Shown: positions 2,886 through 9,851 of the stretch, one piece after another | How the letters are laid out: each line of letters opens with the position of its first letter | Position numbering within the stretch: the first letter of the stretch is position 1 | Assembly: GCA_024687165.1 (NCBI GenBank) | Contig: JAILEY010000029.1 | Span: 1-32,355, forward strand | Direction of reading: 5' to 3' | Source: Treponema sp. | GTDB taxonomy: Bacteria; Spirochaetota; Spirochaetia; Treponematales; Treponemataceae | DNA length: 32,355 bases | Notes under the pieces: model-generated | What the model was told of the DNA's origin: nothing | The model's database searches: none | The model's input: the letters and a program-made list of their open reading frames with translations, nothing else | Position numbers and translations under genes: made by a program

Positions 2886-2975
2886 TACCGTGTATGAACC
2901 AGCCCTGATGGGACGATGTCGCTGCGTGGGCAGTCTCCGTATGGAATGCTGCATTAATTTCCGTTGGTGTCGTAT
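2886..2975 (+). promoter_or_regulatory. GC-rich structured leader of the decarboxylase mRNA (candidate cis-regulator)
   Basis: This leader is clearly richer in G and C than the AT-rich DNA on either side. It holds several possible short stems: CCC-TGAT-GGG (2903-2912), GAC-GAT-GTC (2912-2920), CTGC-GTGG-GCAG (2922-2933), GGGAC with GTCTC (2910-2914 with 2933-2937) and AATG-CTG-CATT (2945-2955). ACCA (2898-2901) could also pair with TGGT (2965-2968) just upstream of the start, covering the only Shine-Dalgarno-like bases. Several of these are mutually exclusive, which would suit a switch. I could not match it to a known riboswitch class by eye. Confidence 0.4.
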
Positions 2976-4142
2976 ATGTTCAATCGCGAAGATTATGTGT
3001 CAGACAAAGACTGGCAGAAATTTCTTTCATTTTCTAAAGATCTTGAAACTCCAAACATCGTTGTAAATCTTCACACAATCAAACAGAATTTTATCCGTTT
3101 GAAGGATTCGTTTCCTTATGCACGAATTTATTATGCAATCAAGGCAAATCCTGGAGATCCTGTTCTTAAGATGCTTGCAGAAATGGGCAGCTGTTTTGAT
3201 ATTGCAAGCCGTTATGAGCTGGATAAAATTTTAAAATTCGATGTAAGTCCTGACAGACTTTCTTATGGAAACACAATCAAAAAGGCAAAGGACATTGCAT
3301 ACTTTTATGAAAAAGGCGTGCGAATGTTTGCAACAGACAGCAAGGAAGATCTGAAAAATATTGCAAAGTATGCACCTGGCAGTCGTGTTTATGTCCGTAT
3401 TCTTATTGAAACTTCCGCAACTGCAGACTGGCCTTTGAGCAGAAAATTCGGATGTCACCCGGATATGGCTTATGATCTTATTGTTATGGCAAAGGATCTT
3501 GGACTTACACCTTTTGGAATCAGCTTTCATGTTGGAAGTCAGCAGCGTGATATTGGTGTATGGAATGATGCAATTGCAAAGACAAAATATCTTTTTAATT
3601 CTCTTGAAGAAGAAGAGGGTATTCGCCTCAGCATGATTGATATGGGCGGAGGTTTCCCTGCAAGTTACATGGAGCCTACAAATAATCTTTCTGAATATGC
3701 TCATGAAATTACCCGTTACCTTGAAGAAGACTTTGGTGAGGATATGCCGGAGATCATTCTTGAACCGGGCCGTTCTCTTGTTGGAGACAGCGGAATCCTT
3801 ACTTCAGAAGTAGTTCTGATCAGCCGTAAAAATAATACTGCTCTTGCACGCTGGGTTTATCAGGATGCGGGAAAATTTAACGGGCTTGTAGAAACTCTTG
3901 ATGAAGCAATTAAATATCCGGTTATTACAGAAAAAGACGGCGGTAAAGAAACTGAAGTAATTCTTGCAGGTCCTACTTGTGACAGTATGGATATTATGTA
4001 CGAAAATATAAAATACAAACTTCCGGTTGATTTGAAAATCGGTGACAAAATCTACTGGCTTTCAACAGGCGCCTACACATCAACCTACGCTAGCGTAGAA
4101 TTCAACGGCTTCCCTCCGATTAAAACATACTACATGGAATAA
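2976..4142 (+). CDS. PLP-dependent ornithine decarboxylase-like enzyme (fold type III)
   Basis: The 388-residue protein matches the alanine-racemase-fold amino acid decarboxylases. Visible signatures are the PLP lysine in YYAIKANP (K56), HVGSQ (H185), the phosphate-binding GGGFP (224-228), EPGR (263-266) and GPTCDSMD with the inter-subunit cysteine C335. A C-terminal GAYTSTYASVEFNGFPP resembles eukaryotic-type ODC. The expected reaction is decarboxylation of ornithine to putrescine, feeding polyamine synthesis; lysine or another basic substrate cannot be excluded. The ATG at 2976 was preferred over TTG 2964 and GTG 2967 because the protein family starts near there. No strong ribosome binding site exists, only GGTG. 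It has its own promoter and is closed by a strong terminator, so it is monocistronic. Confidence 0.85.
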   Translation: MFNREDYVSDKDWQKFLSFSKDLETPNIVVNLHTIKQNFIRLKDSFPYARIYYAIKANPGDPVLKMLAEMGSCFDIASRYELDKILKFDVSPDRLSYGNTIKKAKDIAYFYEKGVRMFATDSKEDLKNIAKYAPGSRVYVRILIETSATADWPLSRKFGCHPDMAYDLIVMAKDLGLTPFGISFHVGSQQRDIGVWNDAIAKTKYLFNSLEEEEGIRLSMIDMGGGFPASYMEPTNNLSEYAHEITRYLEEDFGEDMPEIILEPGRSLVGDSGILTSEVVLISRKNNTALARWVYQDAGKFNGLVETLDEAIKYPVITEKDGGKETEVILAGPTCDSMDIMYENIKYKLPVDLKIGDKIYWLSTGAYTSTYASVEFNGFPPIKTYYME

Positions 4143-4162
4143 GCATAAAGGCCGCACCCATG

Positions 4163-4194
4163 CGCCGGTTCACAGGAACTGGCGTTTTTTTTTA
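4163..4194 (+). terminator. Strong intrinsic terminator of the decarboxylase gene
   Basis: CGCCGGTTC (4164-4172), loop ACAG, GAACTGGCG (4177-4185) form a 9-bp stem with one G-U pair, followed by nine T. It lies 21 bases after the stop codon. Confidence 0.92.
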
Positions 4195-4222: not shown

Positions 4223-5332
4223 ATGAAAAGAAATAACAAAATCGGTTTTTGGAAAAAGTTTTCAAAAAGATTAAAGCTTACTCTTAAAAATCCATTCACA
4301 TATTTTTTCCTGCTGATTGTAATTCTTCTTGTTGCAGCAACCTTTGTTGTAAGAAATACGGAACCCTATCATCCGGAAGGGGAAGTAACTAACTGGAAGG
4401 ACGCAATCTGGCATTCTATTGTCGCTGTTGTTGCGGCTTACTACGATTATTACATGAAGACAGTTCCAGGACGACTTGCTTCTCTTGGTCTTCTTCTTCT
4501 TGGTATGGCTTTCTGGACGATTGTTATGGGTAAAATTACTGAAAGCATCATGTCTGTTCAGACAAAAAAAAATAAGGGGTTAAAAAAACTTAAGCGTATG
4601 AAAGGTCATTTTATTCTTTGCGGATGGCGTGAAGATTTTGAAGAAATTCTTGATTCAGTAATTAATTCAAATTTCGATATTACGCCTGATATGATTGTTC
4701 TTGTAAACAATGCTCCTGTTGAAGAAATGCGGCAGCTTATGGCGGACATAAGATTTAAAGAAGTTAAATACATCAACGGTGATTTTTCTGATGCAGAAGT
4801 TTTACAGCGAGCCCACATTCAGACTGCAAACCGTGTTCTTGTAATTTCAGATTATACAGGCGGTGCAACAGAAATGGAAATTGACAGCCGCACCGTTCTT
4901 TCAGTACTGACGATGAAAAATCTTAATCCAAAGATTTATGTTGCGGCAGAACTTCTCAGTGCAAAATTTCAGAATCAGCTTAAGATGGCAAATTGTGATG
5001 AAGTAATTCTTACGCAGGAATATCAGTACAGCCTTCTTGCAACAGCCTCAAGTGGTCAGGGCTACAGCAACGTAATTAAAGCTTTGATCAGCGATGATTC
5101 AGACAGTGGAATTATTATTGAAGACATTCCGAATAAATTTGGCGGAAATAAATATGAAGTTTTGTGCAAAGCATATGAGGCGGCAGAAAGATGCGGCGAC
5201 ATTCTTGTTGGGCTTTTGATTAAAATTGAAGAATCTGCTCAGCCTCTTTTAACTCCGCCTGCTGATTTTATAATTCCAAAGAAAGCTAAAGCAATTGTAA
5301 TTCGTGCAAAGGATGAAGCAGACGATGAGTAA
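4223..5332 (+). CDS. RCK/TrkA-N ion channel, paralogue 1, non-canonical pore
   Basis: This 369-residue membrane protein has TM1 at about residues 25-43, a pore helix and loop at 57-84, TM2 at 85-105, and cytosolic RCK (TrkA-N-like) sequence from ~127 (KGHFILCGWREDFEEIL) to the end. The layout is that of two-TM potassium channels, but the usual TVGYGD filter is absent. The loop reads VVAAYYDYYMKTVPGR, aligned by the flanking DAIW and PGR. The CGW motif and long RCK region recall the CASTOR/POLLUX-type channel group. The ATG at 4223 was chosen because an upstream in-frame start would lie inside the preceding terminator. No ribosome binding site is present. It overlaps the second channel gene by 8 bases. 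Ion selectivity is unknown. Confidence 0.8.
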   Translation: MKRNNKIGFWKKFSKRLKLTLKNPFTYFFLLIVILLVAATFVVRNTEPYHPEGEVTNWKDAIWHSIVAVVAAYYDYYMKTVPGRLASLGLLLLGMAFWTIVMGKITESIMSVQTKKNKGLKKLKRMKGHFILCGWREDFEEILDSVINSNFDITPDMIVLVNNAPVEEMRQLMADIRFKEVKYINGDFSDAEVLQRAHIQTANRVLVISDYTGGATEMEIDSRTVLSVLTMKNLNPKIYVAAELLSAKFQNQLKMANCDEVILTQEYQYSLLATASSGQGYSNVIKALISDDSDSGIIIEDIPNKFGGNKYEVLCKAYEAAERCGDILVGLLIKIEESAQPLLTPPADFIIPKKAKAIVIRAKDEADDE

Positions 5333-6512
5333 AATCAACAGAAAAAAACGAAGAAATAAATCAAGATTCGTTAAATATGCAAGATACGTTTTAAGAAATC
5401 CTGTAACAATCGGATATATTGCTCTTGCTTTTTTTATTTATGCGGCTCTTGCTGTTGTTTATATGTTTGAGACAAAAACTGGAAGCGGAATTACAACAAA
5501 GTTCGATACGTTCTGGTTTATGTGTGTTGCAGTCTGTGCCGGATATTTTGAGTTCGTCTGTGAATCAATTCCAGGTCGTGCTGCGGCAATATCTTTGCTT
5601 ATAGTTGGAACAATGGTGTTTGGTTACATACGTGGTCAGGTTGCATCGATGTTTGTAGATCTTGCGGAAAAAAGAAATAAAGGATTAGGTAAATTGAAAA
5701 ACATGAAAGGTCATTTTGTTATTTGCGGATGGAGAAGGGGCTTTGAAAAAATTCTGGATGCTGTTCTTGTTTCAAATCCTGATATTACGCCGGATATGGT
5801 TGTTCTTGTTAATGAGGCTCCAGATCAGGTTGAAGCCTTAAGAATGGATGACAGATTTAAGGAAGTAAATTATGTTGCCGGAGATTTTACTGATGAATCT
5901 ACTTTGAAAAGGGCTCATATTCAGTCTGCTTCCCGTGCACTTGTAATCTGTGACCGTTCCAAAAAATATTCAAAGCTGGAAATTGACTCAAGAACAGTTC
6001 TTGCGGTTTTTACAATGGCAAATATCTGCCGCGGACTTTATATTGTTGCTGAACTTTTGAGCGGAAAATTTGAAAAACACCTTCGAATGGCACATTGTGA
6101 TGAAATCATTCTTACCCAGGATTATGAGCGCAGTCTTCTTGCAACGGCTTCAAATGGTGTTGGTTATTCAAGTGTTATCAGTTCCCTTATCAGTGATGAT
6201 TCTGACAGTGGTATTTTAATTTTTAATATTGAAAAAGATTTTTCAGGTAAGACTTTTGGTGATTTGAAAAAGTATGAAAGTGAGCATCATAAAGAAAAAG
6301 GTATTCTTGTTGGTGTTCTCTTAAATTCAGGAAACTTCCATAAAAGAAGGTCTGAAGCTTTAAGTGAAGCTCAGAAAAATCCTGATCTGTCAAAGGTTAT
6401 TGCAAATCTTCAGAAGGTAAAATTTCTTAAGAGCAATGAGCCTGTTCTTGCTCCAGACAGCAGCTTTGTGCTTCCTCCTCATTCAAAAGCAATTTTTGTA
6501 AGAGGAAAATAA
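5325..6512 (+). CDS. RCK/TrkA-N ion channel, paralogue 2, non-canonical pore
   Basis: The 395-residue product is a clear paralogue of the gene before it. TM1 is at 28-47, pore loop at 59-84 (CVAVCAGYFEFVCESIPGR), TM2 at 86-105, and RCK sequence from ~128 (KGHFVICGWRRGFEKIL). Shared blocks include the SNPDITPDMVVLVNEAP segment, LEIDSRTVLAV and SLISDDSDSGI. The start overlaps the previous gene by 8 bases and follows AAGGA, so translation is coupled. In-frame ATGs at 5304 and 5313 are less likely. An extra segment near residues 330-365 (HKRRSEALSEAQKNPD) is missing from paralogue 1. Equal order and coupling suggest a heteromeric channel. Like its partner it lacks the canonical potassium filter and has an acidic residue in the loop (E76). 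Confidence 0.8.
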   Translation: MSKINRKKRRNKSRFVKYARYVLRNPVTIGYIALAFFIYAALAVVYMFETKTGSGITTKFDTFWFMCVAVCAGYFEFVCESIPGRAAAISLLIVGTMVFGYIRGQVASMFVDLAEKRNKGLGKLKNMKGHFVICGWRRGFEKILDAVLVSNPDITPDMVVLVNEAPDQVEALRMDDRFKEVNYVAGDFTDESTLKRAHIQSASRALVICDRSKKYSKLEIDSRTVLAVFTMANICRGLYIVAELLSGKFEKHLRMAHCDEIILTQDYERSLLATASNGVGYSSVISSLISDDSDSGILIFNIEKDFSGKTFGDLKKYESEHHKEKGILVGVLLNSGNFHKRRSEALSEAQKNPDLSKVIANLQKVKFLKSNEPVLAPDSSFVLPPHSKAIFVRGK

Positions 6513-6517
6513 AAAAT

Positions 6518-6535
6518 TAAAATCTTTTGATTTTA
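6518..6535. terminator. AT-rich hairpin between convergent genes
   Basis: TAAAATC (6518-6524), loop TTTT, GATTTTA (6529-6535) form a perfect 7-bp stem between the convergent channel and pseudouridine synthase genes, overlapping the stop codon of the latter. It is AT-rich with a weak U tract, so termination is only plausible. Confidence 0.4.
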
Positions 6536-7453
6536 CAGAAACTGTGCGCTCAGAGGAGACTCTATTTTCATACGCTCACCGCTTACCGGGTGTGTAAATT
6601 CAAGTGTGTGCGCATGAAGCATGATTCTGCCTTTTACTGTTGAACCGTAAAGTTCATCCCCGCAGATCGGCAGTCCTTTTGAAGAGAGGTGAACTCTTAT
6701 CTGATGTGTTCTGCCTGTAAACAAAATGCATTCTACAAAAACTTTTTTTTCGTCTTCCTTTACGATTTTAAATTTTGTTTTTGCATTCTGACCTTTTGTT
6801 TCATCTTTTGTAATTCCCATTTTGCATGCTGAACTTTTTGAAGAGATTCTTGTAAGAAAATTTTCTACTGTGAATTCTTTCTGCTGCGGTTTTATTTTTA
6901 CTTCGCATACTGCACGGTAAATTTTATTTATTGTGTGTTGAGAAAATTGTTCGCTGAGGCTTTTGTTTGCTTCACGTTTTTTTGTAAAGAGAAGAACTCC
7001 GCTTGTTTCTTTGTCCAGACGGTGCATTATTCCTGCATACGGCGGATTTCTTAAAGAACGGTTTTTGTTCCACAGATATTCAACAACACATGAATGCATT
7101 GATTTTCTTTCTTTTACAAAAGTATCTTCTGTAGGAAGGTAAGCGGGTTTGTTTACAACGATTATGTATTCATCTTCAAAGAGTACATCTTTTTGAGTAA
7201 GCGTAAAGTCAATGTCGTCTGCAGACTTTTCAAAAAAAAGTTTTTCTTCCTGAATATCTGCAGAAACTGTAGAGCCGACTTTTAAATCGTAAGCAGGAAT
7301 GCGGCATTGTTTTGAATTAACGCTGACGCATCCTGCAAGAATAAGGCGCCTGATTTTTCCATTGGAAATTTCTTTTTCAACAACAAGAGGAATTTCTCTT
7401 CTTAAAAATGAGTCAAGTCTTTCCTGCTGCTGAACTTTCCACTGTTTAATCAT
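6533..7453 (-). CDS. RluA-family 23S rRNA pseudouridine synthase
   Basis: The 306-residue enzyme isomerises uridine to pseudouridine in structured RNA. An S4 RNA-binding domain spans about residues 10-70 (ERLDSFLRR...LILAGCVSVNSK). The catalytic domain begins near 90 with FEDEYIIVVNKPAYLPT and carries the signature HRLDKETSG with the catalytic aspartate D147. Later it has LFTGRTHQIRVHL and LHAHTLEFTHP, both family hallmarks. Length is normal for S4-containing RluA/RluD proteins. The exact target uridine (RluC- or RluD-like) cannot be read from the sequence. It begins 9 bases after ribH with no good ribosome binding site, so it is probably translated by coupling at the end of the riboflavin operon. 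Confidence 0.88.
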   Translation of the reverse strand: MIKQWKVQQQERLDSFLRREIPLVVEKEISNGKIRRLILAGCVSVNSKQCRIPAYDLKVGSTVSADIQEEKLFFEKSADDIDFTLTQKDVLFEDEYIIVVNKPAYLPTEDTFVKERKSMHSCVVEYLWNKNRSLRNPPYAGIMHRLDKETSGVLLFTKKREANKSLSEQFSQHTINKIYRAVCEVKIKPQQKEFTVENFLTRISSKSSACKMGITKDETKGQNAKTKFKIVKEDEKKVFVECILFTGRTHQIRVHLSSKGLPICGDELYGSTVKGRIMLHAHTLEFTHPVSGERMKIESPLSAQFL

Positions 7454-9203: not shown

Positions 9204-9851
9204 TTAATTGTGAAAGTTCGGAAAGTTCATCTGCATAAGATCTGCATTTTTATCTTTAGGACCCTGCGTGAACTGCCGCACGTATTTTGCAATCATATCG
9301 ATTTCTATATTTACTTTTTTACCTGCTGTCTTTTCGCTTAAAATCGTGTTGCTCCAGGTATGTGGAATTACTGCGAGAGTAAATATGCAGTCTCCAGAAG
9401 ACCATTTTAAATCCGCGATTGTAAGGCTTATTCCGTCAACAGCAACAGACCCTTTTTCAATCAGATATTCTCCAAGTGATTTTTCAACAGCTACCTGAAC
9501 ATTAACAGCGTTTTCGTCTTTTGTGAAAGCAACAAGTCTTCCTGTTCCGTCAATGTGTCCGCTTACAATGTGACCGCCGAATCTTCCGTCTGCTTTCATT
9601 GCACGCTCAAGATTTACATGGCTTCCTGAATGAAGGTCTGAGAGAGAAGTGCGGCTGTAAGTTTCCGGAGTAACGTCTGCTGTAAAAGAGTTTCCTTCAA
9701 TTGAACATACAGTAAGACAGACTCCGTTGACTGCAATGCTTTCTCCCATAACAAGCTTTTCAAAATCAGTTTCAATCTGAATGGAAAAAGCTTTTGTCAT
9801 CCGCGAGATATTTTTTACTGTTCCAAGTGTTTCTATAATTCCTGTAAACAT
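9204..9851 (-). CDS. ribE: Riboflavin synthase (alpha chain)
   Basis: This 215-residue enzyme dismutates two molecules of 6,7-dimethyl-8-ribityllumazine to riboflavin and the ribitylamino-uracil. It shows the internal duplication of lumazine-binding domains: repeat 1 starts MFTGIIETLGTV with SIAVNGVCLTV, and repeat 2 starts VSGHIDGTGRL with GSVAVDGISLTI. Length is normal. The C-terminal tail (KDKNADLMQMNFPNFHN) is slightly extended and unremarkable. AAGGA lies 6 bases before the ATG. The gene is second in the operon, 22 bases after ribD. The symbol follows the ribDEAH convention; the same gene is called ribC in E. coli. Confidence 0.95.
   Translation of the reverse strand: MFTGIIETLGTVKNISRMTKAFSIQIETDFEKLVMGESIAVNGVCLTVCSIEGNSFTADVTPETYSRTSLSDLHSGSHVNLERAMKADGRFGGHIVSGHIDGTGRLVAFTKDENAVNVQVAVEKSLGEYLIEKGSVAVDGISLTIADLKWSSGDCIFTLAVIPHTWSNTILSEKTAGKKVNIEIDMIAKYVRQFTQGPKDKNADLMQMNFPNFHN

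Follow-up and report, generated by a model that had tools for sequence, protein, structure and literature searches.

The window analysed here, a 32,355-nucleotide stretch of contig JAILEY010000029.1 from a Treponema sp. assembly (GCA_024687165.1), carries two tandem genes, A and B, whose products share the layout TM1, pore loop, TM2 and one RCK domain, and are 43% identical to each other (Table 1). The open frame of B begins at GTG 5304 (402 aa from this codon); ATG 5325, with AAAGGA upstream, is the better start, and it overlaps the stop of A (ATGAGTAA), giving an A/B overlap of 8 nt. The RCK domains matched Slo-like_RCK (A, 1.3e-13; B, 5.1e-12) and TrkA_N (A, 2.4e-9; B, 1.5e-8), and the C-terminal RCK is present, with PF22614 and PF02254 exceeding the cut-off in both proteins. 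Two TM helices surround the pore loop, as the alignment with MthK covers TM1-P-TM2-RCK, and a low-confidence AlphaFold model places helices at 24-46 and 81-115. The earlier note had described A and B as paralogous RCK channels related to two-TM K+ channels, a description borne out here. In single-protein scans, Ion_trans_2 scored 18.5 bits in A and 13.3 bits in B (cut-off 22.5), compared to 59-64 bits in canonical Treponema relatives; the pore domain of both is eroded but still recognisable. A genome search with PF07885 (2TM pore family) found A alone, just above the cut-off, B being below its reach. The genome further encodes a separate TrkA-like protein (487 aa, two TrkA_N domains), and Trk-type K+ uptake is probably present separately from A and B.

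Table 1. Coordinates of the features discussed. Positions refer to the window unless a locus is named.
Feature	Position	Strand	Details
Intrinsic-terminator-like hairpin with T run	4162..4185	+	Between the decarboxylase gene and A; pattern match only
Gene A, 2TM + RCK channel subunit	4223..5332	+	369 aa; ATG 4223, stop 5332
Remodelled filter loop of A	4424..4450	+	AVVAAYYDY, replaces TMTTVGYGDI, one residue shorter; alignment
Lys79 of A, outer mouth	4457..4459	+	K in 33/34 A
RCK N-lobe of A (Slo-like_RCK / TrkA_N)	4598..5011	+	Domain scan
Gene B, 2TM + RCK channel subunit	5325..6512	+	395 aa from ATG 5325
Remodelled filter loop of B	5529..5555	+	AVCAGYFEF; alignment, conservation
Glu87 of B (GTG numbering)	5562..5564	+	Same column as K79 of A; E in 34/34 B
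RCK N-lobe of B (Slo-like_RCK / TrkA_N)	5700..6113	+	Domain scan
Gap after B where relatives have the CNBD partner gene	6513..6532	.	20 nt
Convergent RluD-like gene directly after the gap	6533-7453	-	Open reading frames
C-type loci	L114 2800-4020 and 1128-2294; L190, L191, L192, L193, L194, L113		

Upstream of A lies a type III PLP-dependent decarboxylase gene (ornithine/lysine-like; 2964-4142, + strand), followed by the terminator-like hairpin; because this hairpin separates the decarboxylase gene from A, the channel pair is probably its own transcription unit. Apart from the window species, only its close relative G526 and a single canonical locus (L199) have a decarboxylase gene beside the channels, and a functional link between the two (for example, a polyamine channel) was rejected in view of the intervening hairpin and the rarely shared neighbour. 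An MthK-style internal start producing a soluble RCK was likewise discarded, the Met being kept in A (34/34) with a Shine-Dalgarno-like site in only 1/34.

The TVGYG signature filter is missing from both A and B, as the earlier note had stated for TVGYGD, and the loops that take its place are one residue shorter than in relatives. Relatives were collected across Spirochaetota at 1e-25 (a match in 105 of 393 genomes) and within the same family at 1e-20 (149 of 274 genomes), and every Spirochaetota relative with a readable loop outside one Treponema clade carried T-x-GYG or an S/T-TGYG variant. Intermediates with their flanks kept, VTIIAGYYEYSPVSLPGR (L187) versus VTMTTVGYGDIYPSTIPGR (L166), anchor the loop alignment, according to which TVGYG has lost its V, A stands for the preceding T, Y or F stands for the second G, and the acid is kept as D or E. 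We tallied loop residues in 34 distinct A, 34 distinct B and 26 single-gene sequences; the common pattern proposed earlier, AV-x-A-(A/G)-Y-(Y/F)-(D/E)-(Y/F) with its conserved acid, proved exact and not a product of chance, as it held in all A and all B (34/34 each), bar N at the A/G position in nine B. A71 and Y73 were invariant in the A, B and single-gene sets, while the loop acid was D in all A and E in 33/34 B, every single-gene sequence having one or the other. Both GYG glycines are gone in A and the second one is gone in B; the acid, the GR motif and the TM2 hinge glycine are kept. The loop is conserved in pairs from about 34 species, which is where the earlier note had proposed to look.

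In a tree built with the loop columns excluded, the non-canonical genes formed one clade nested among canonical ones (support 100/97), inside which A (100/100) and B (100/99) were reciprocally monophyletic, with one window gene falling in each. Genes of this clade occur singly or as an ancient A-B tandem, and since single-gene species also carry the altered loop, the loop change predates the A/B duplication. With canonical filters in the other relatives, A and B represent a derived remodelling inside a spirochaete K+ channel family. The earlier note had held that orthologues with TVGYGD at the same position would refute its reading; such filters are found at the level of the family (other Treponema, wider spirochaetes). 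Gene order was A then B on the same strand in 65/65 loci (some fetched twice; about 34 distinct), and the only lone genes were two of B, both cut by contig ends.

The family also holds loci with other pore arrangements. At L209:4072-5271 (+), the pore clusters among canonical ones, whereas the RCK and the pair-type CNBD partner cluster with the clade; at L169:6421-8010 (-), a 6TM voltage-gated-type pore (Ion_trans, 2.8e-32) is fused to an RCK of the clade, and the CNBD partner gene comes next. Both look like replacements of the pore module by a canonical pore. A C-type paralogue, detected in seven Treponema genomes, has the loop TGVVRF or TGVFKF, in which a basic residue replaces the acid; this gene lies directly upstream of a canonical TVGYGD channel, and a CNBD gene of its own follows each channel. 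The C genes of G350 and G463 look broken.

Mean column entropy of the loop was 0.29 bits in A and 0.27 bits in B, compared to 0.91 and 0.71 bits in the respective RCK N-lobes and 0.33 bits in the filter of canonical Treponema channels; the loop of the singles was more varied (0.99 bits). A parallel picture was obtained from dN/dS ratios taken on unsaturated pairs, with values of 0.006 (A), 0.007 (B) and 0.022 (singles) for the loop relative to 0.116, 0.090 and 0.078 for the whole genes, and the loop was the slowest-evolving part of the protein in A and B. The low entropy and dN/dS indicate that the new loop is as constrained as a working filter and under very strong purifying selection, not decaying.

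In relatives, the channel gene (or gene pair) is directly followed by a co-directional, stand-alone CNBD gene (~175 codons; PF00027, 3e-21) that overlaps or abuts it. This arrangement was found in 149 of 151 distinct Spirochaetota loci with room downstream, comprising 146 counted by script and three (L105, L106 and L111) added on inspection, where the CNBD lies inside a longer open frame; in the order-level relatives L105 and L106, this frame is 448 aa and overlaps the channel gene. Only L115, which is a channel remnant, and the window lack the gene. Nearly all aligned CNBD sequences retain the phosphate-binding cassette FFGE-x-AL...R-x-A-x-V, and the solved structures closest to them are CNBDs from PKA/PKG regulatory domains, ahead of the Crp family and SthK. 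The CNBD tree separates the same types as the channel tree with few exceptions, and this agreement, together with the near-universal downstream gene, marks channel plus CNBD as the ancestral unit. The conserved neighbour shows co-inheritance rather than binding, and cyclic-nucleotide regulation of the channel in trans is an inference.

Within the window, B is followed by a short gap and the convergent RluD-like gene, no CNBD gene was found anywhere in the stretch, and the domain scan gave no PF00027 match in the A or B polypeptide; although A and B fall in the channel tree, their locus has no same-strand downstream CNBD gene and has lost its adjacent partner. An orphan CNBD gene is present elsewhere in the genome (L225:4207-4734 (-), equivalent to G000:C78, about 9206-9733, minus strand), and in the tree it falls among the partners of canonical channels, although no such channel was found in this genome; the orphan may or may not replace the lost partner. 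Seven class III cyclase matches above the cut-off were detected in the same genome.

A comparison of the 42 columns charged in both A and B revealed the same sign in 40 and opposite signs in two, namely K79 (A)/E87 (B) at the outer mouth and acidic A251/basic B258 in the RCK, the window's own A having N, not E/D, at the A251 site. Single-gene relatives mostly have K at both sites, so the change of sign took place only in B at the mouth and only in A in the RCK. Such opposite charges are what alternating subunits could produce, and at two of 42 charged columns they are a weak sign of A-B contact. The 'obligate heteromer' suggested by the earlier note is a candidate arrangement that fits the genetics.

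The closest solved proteins to A and B are MthK and BK/Slo. MthK, an archaeal Ca2+-gated K+ channel of the same 2TM + RCK architecture, ranked first among PDB sequence matches of A (2.7e-13) and among Foldseek matches of the weak B model, and its TM2 hinge glycine is kept in A and B; however, MthK has TVGYGD and a soluble RCK from an internal start, whereas A and B have neither TVGYG nor a Shine-Dalgarno-like site at the internal Met, and they are two paralogues whose relatives have a CNBD partner. The N-lobe of A and B fits the Slo-like model (PF22614), as in the first RCK of BK/Slo, better than TrkA_N, but A and B differ from BK/Slo in having no voltage sensor, one RCK and no canonical filter. 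The plant nuclear Ca2+ channels CASTOR/POLLUX/DMI1 are likewise RCK channels without TVGYG and with an acid in the filter, share a distant RCK similarity (7e-08), and include two cooperating paralogues in Lotus. In CASTOR, the filter reads AD-S/A-GNHA, its acid preceding the G, and the protein has four predicted TM and a long soluble domain (PMC6697748). No Castor_Poll_mid (PF06241) match was obtained in A or B at E up to 1, and one canonical relative gave a sub-threshold match (18 bits versus a cut-off of 26.7). With no such domain, a single RCK, a filter unlike ADSGNHA and canonical K+ channels as relatives, A and B find no support as members of CASTOR/POLLUX, to which the earlier note had likened them. 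NaK, NaKTs and CNG channels are fairer functional analogues, as K+-channel-fold pores with altered filters (TVGDG, LPMGNGPLSP, TIGET) and poor K+ selectivity, although their filter sequences differ from those of A and B, NaK and NaKTs have no RCK, and CNG channels carry the CNBD in-chain. In NaKTs, an altered filter in a 2TM bacterial channel yields a non-selective cation channel (PMC5052707). SthK, the CNG channel of Spirochaeta thermophila, is also a spirochaete channel under cyclic-nucleotide control, but it is 6TM with the CNBD in cis, whereas relatives of A and B combine a separate CNBD protein with an RCK channel.

The explanation we favour, and hold at about even confidence, is that A and B derive from an RCK channel of spirochaetes under the control of cyclic nucleotides in trans, of which a Treponema branch probably lost K+ selectivity and then duplicated, leaving a heteromeric cation pore. 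The ancestor would have been a spirochaete K+ channel encoded by an RCK channel gene and then a stand-alone CNBD gene, and A and B would build a tetrameric cation channel in the inner membrane, gated by a ring of RCK domains. The shortened, bulky, glycine-poor loop presumably cannot build four carbonyl K+ sites, and the cation pore would probably be poorly selective or divalent-permeable, four acids forming a ring at its outer end. Both subunits would contribute to the same pore, where K79 (A) and E87 (B) would face each other at the mouth; RCK ligands would open the channel as the RCK ring gates TM2, and in relatives the cyclic-nucleotide-loaded CNBD protein would act on that ring, modulating it in trans. 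Since the loop is without K+-site residues, the channel has likely lost its K+ selectivity, as the parallels of NaKTs and CASTOR suggest, and a non-selective or divalent-permeable cation pore seems the most likely outcome given the conserved acids. A stronger formulation, in which phylum-wide RCK channels are gated in trans by a CNBD protein and a one-residue filter deletion in Treponema led to an obligate heteromer whose acidic filter and selectivity are both new, is advanced only tentatively and with less confidence.

AlphaFold models of A and B, built on shallow alignments (15-16 sequences, drawn from the window and related loci), reached mean pLDDT of 60 and 62 and drew the loop at low confidence as a continuous helix, not as an extended filter, such that a pore-lining loop was not displayed. 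This drawing, the loss of both GYG glycines in A and of the second in B, and the eroded Ion_trans_2 similarity would agree with a loop that is now a helix in non-conducting, membrane-anchored RCK sensors or regulatory subunits, and the C-type paralogues, with basic for acid beside a canonical channel, could be silent subunits of this kind. We consider such a role unlikely, because the loop has the lowest dN/dS in the protein (~0.006), the acid, GR motif and hinge glycine are retained, the locus of single-gene species holds no canonical channel, and two lineages seem to have swapped the whole pore module for a canonical pore on the same RCK, which suggests a working pore. The same apparent exchange in L209 and L169, as well as the K+ channel descent, could instead speak for a pore that is still K+-selective through an unorthodox filter, and with no further Ion_trans_2 protein in the genome the pair could be its only K+ channel; the absence of TVGYG, with one residue missing and T and the second G replaced, and the probably separate Trk-type uptake by the double-TrkA_N protein make this reading less probable still. 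Relic or pseudogenising channels, or a sequencing or assembly artefact, would accord with the lost CNBD partner gene and with stop codons or fragments in a few relatives (the G350 and G463 C-type genes, the G293 remnant), but both frames are intact, conserved in about 34 species and low in dN/dS, which largely refutes this idea for A and B and leaves it highly improbable.

Whichever pore reading applies, A and B could form two separate homotetramers, the tandem being merely co-expressed paralogues; this is compatible with either, its confidence overlapping with theirs, and we regard it as doubtful, although somewhat less so than a non-conducting role. In its favour, relatives that have this loop but only one gene must assemble as homomers, whereas A and B are never apart, keep a fixed order and differ reciprocally at fixed positions (A72 in A versus G/N in B, D versus E, K79 versus E87), all of which argue against separate homotetramers.

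To our knowledge, the TVGYG filter is one of the most conserved motifs in biology. In the open-licence literature, we found nothing on point for Treponema K+ channels, CNBD-RCK pairs or heteromeric prokaryotic RCK channels, and no report of two-component cyclic-nucleotide control of ion channels, a mode of control that the pairing of an RCK-channel gene with a stand-alone CNBD gene suggests. Collectively, this one family offers a graded series, running from canonical filters through single-gene loops minus one residue, the A/B heteromer candidate and the basic C-type to apparent pore restorations, which makes the steps by which a K+ channel may lose its selectivity testable.
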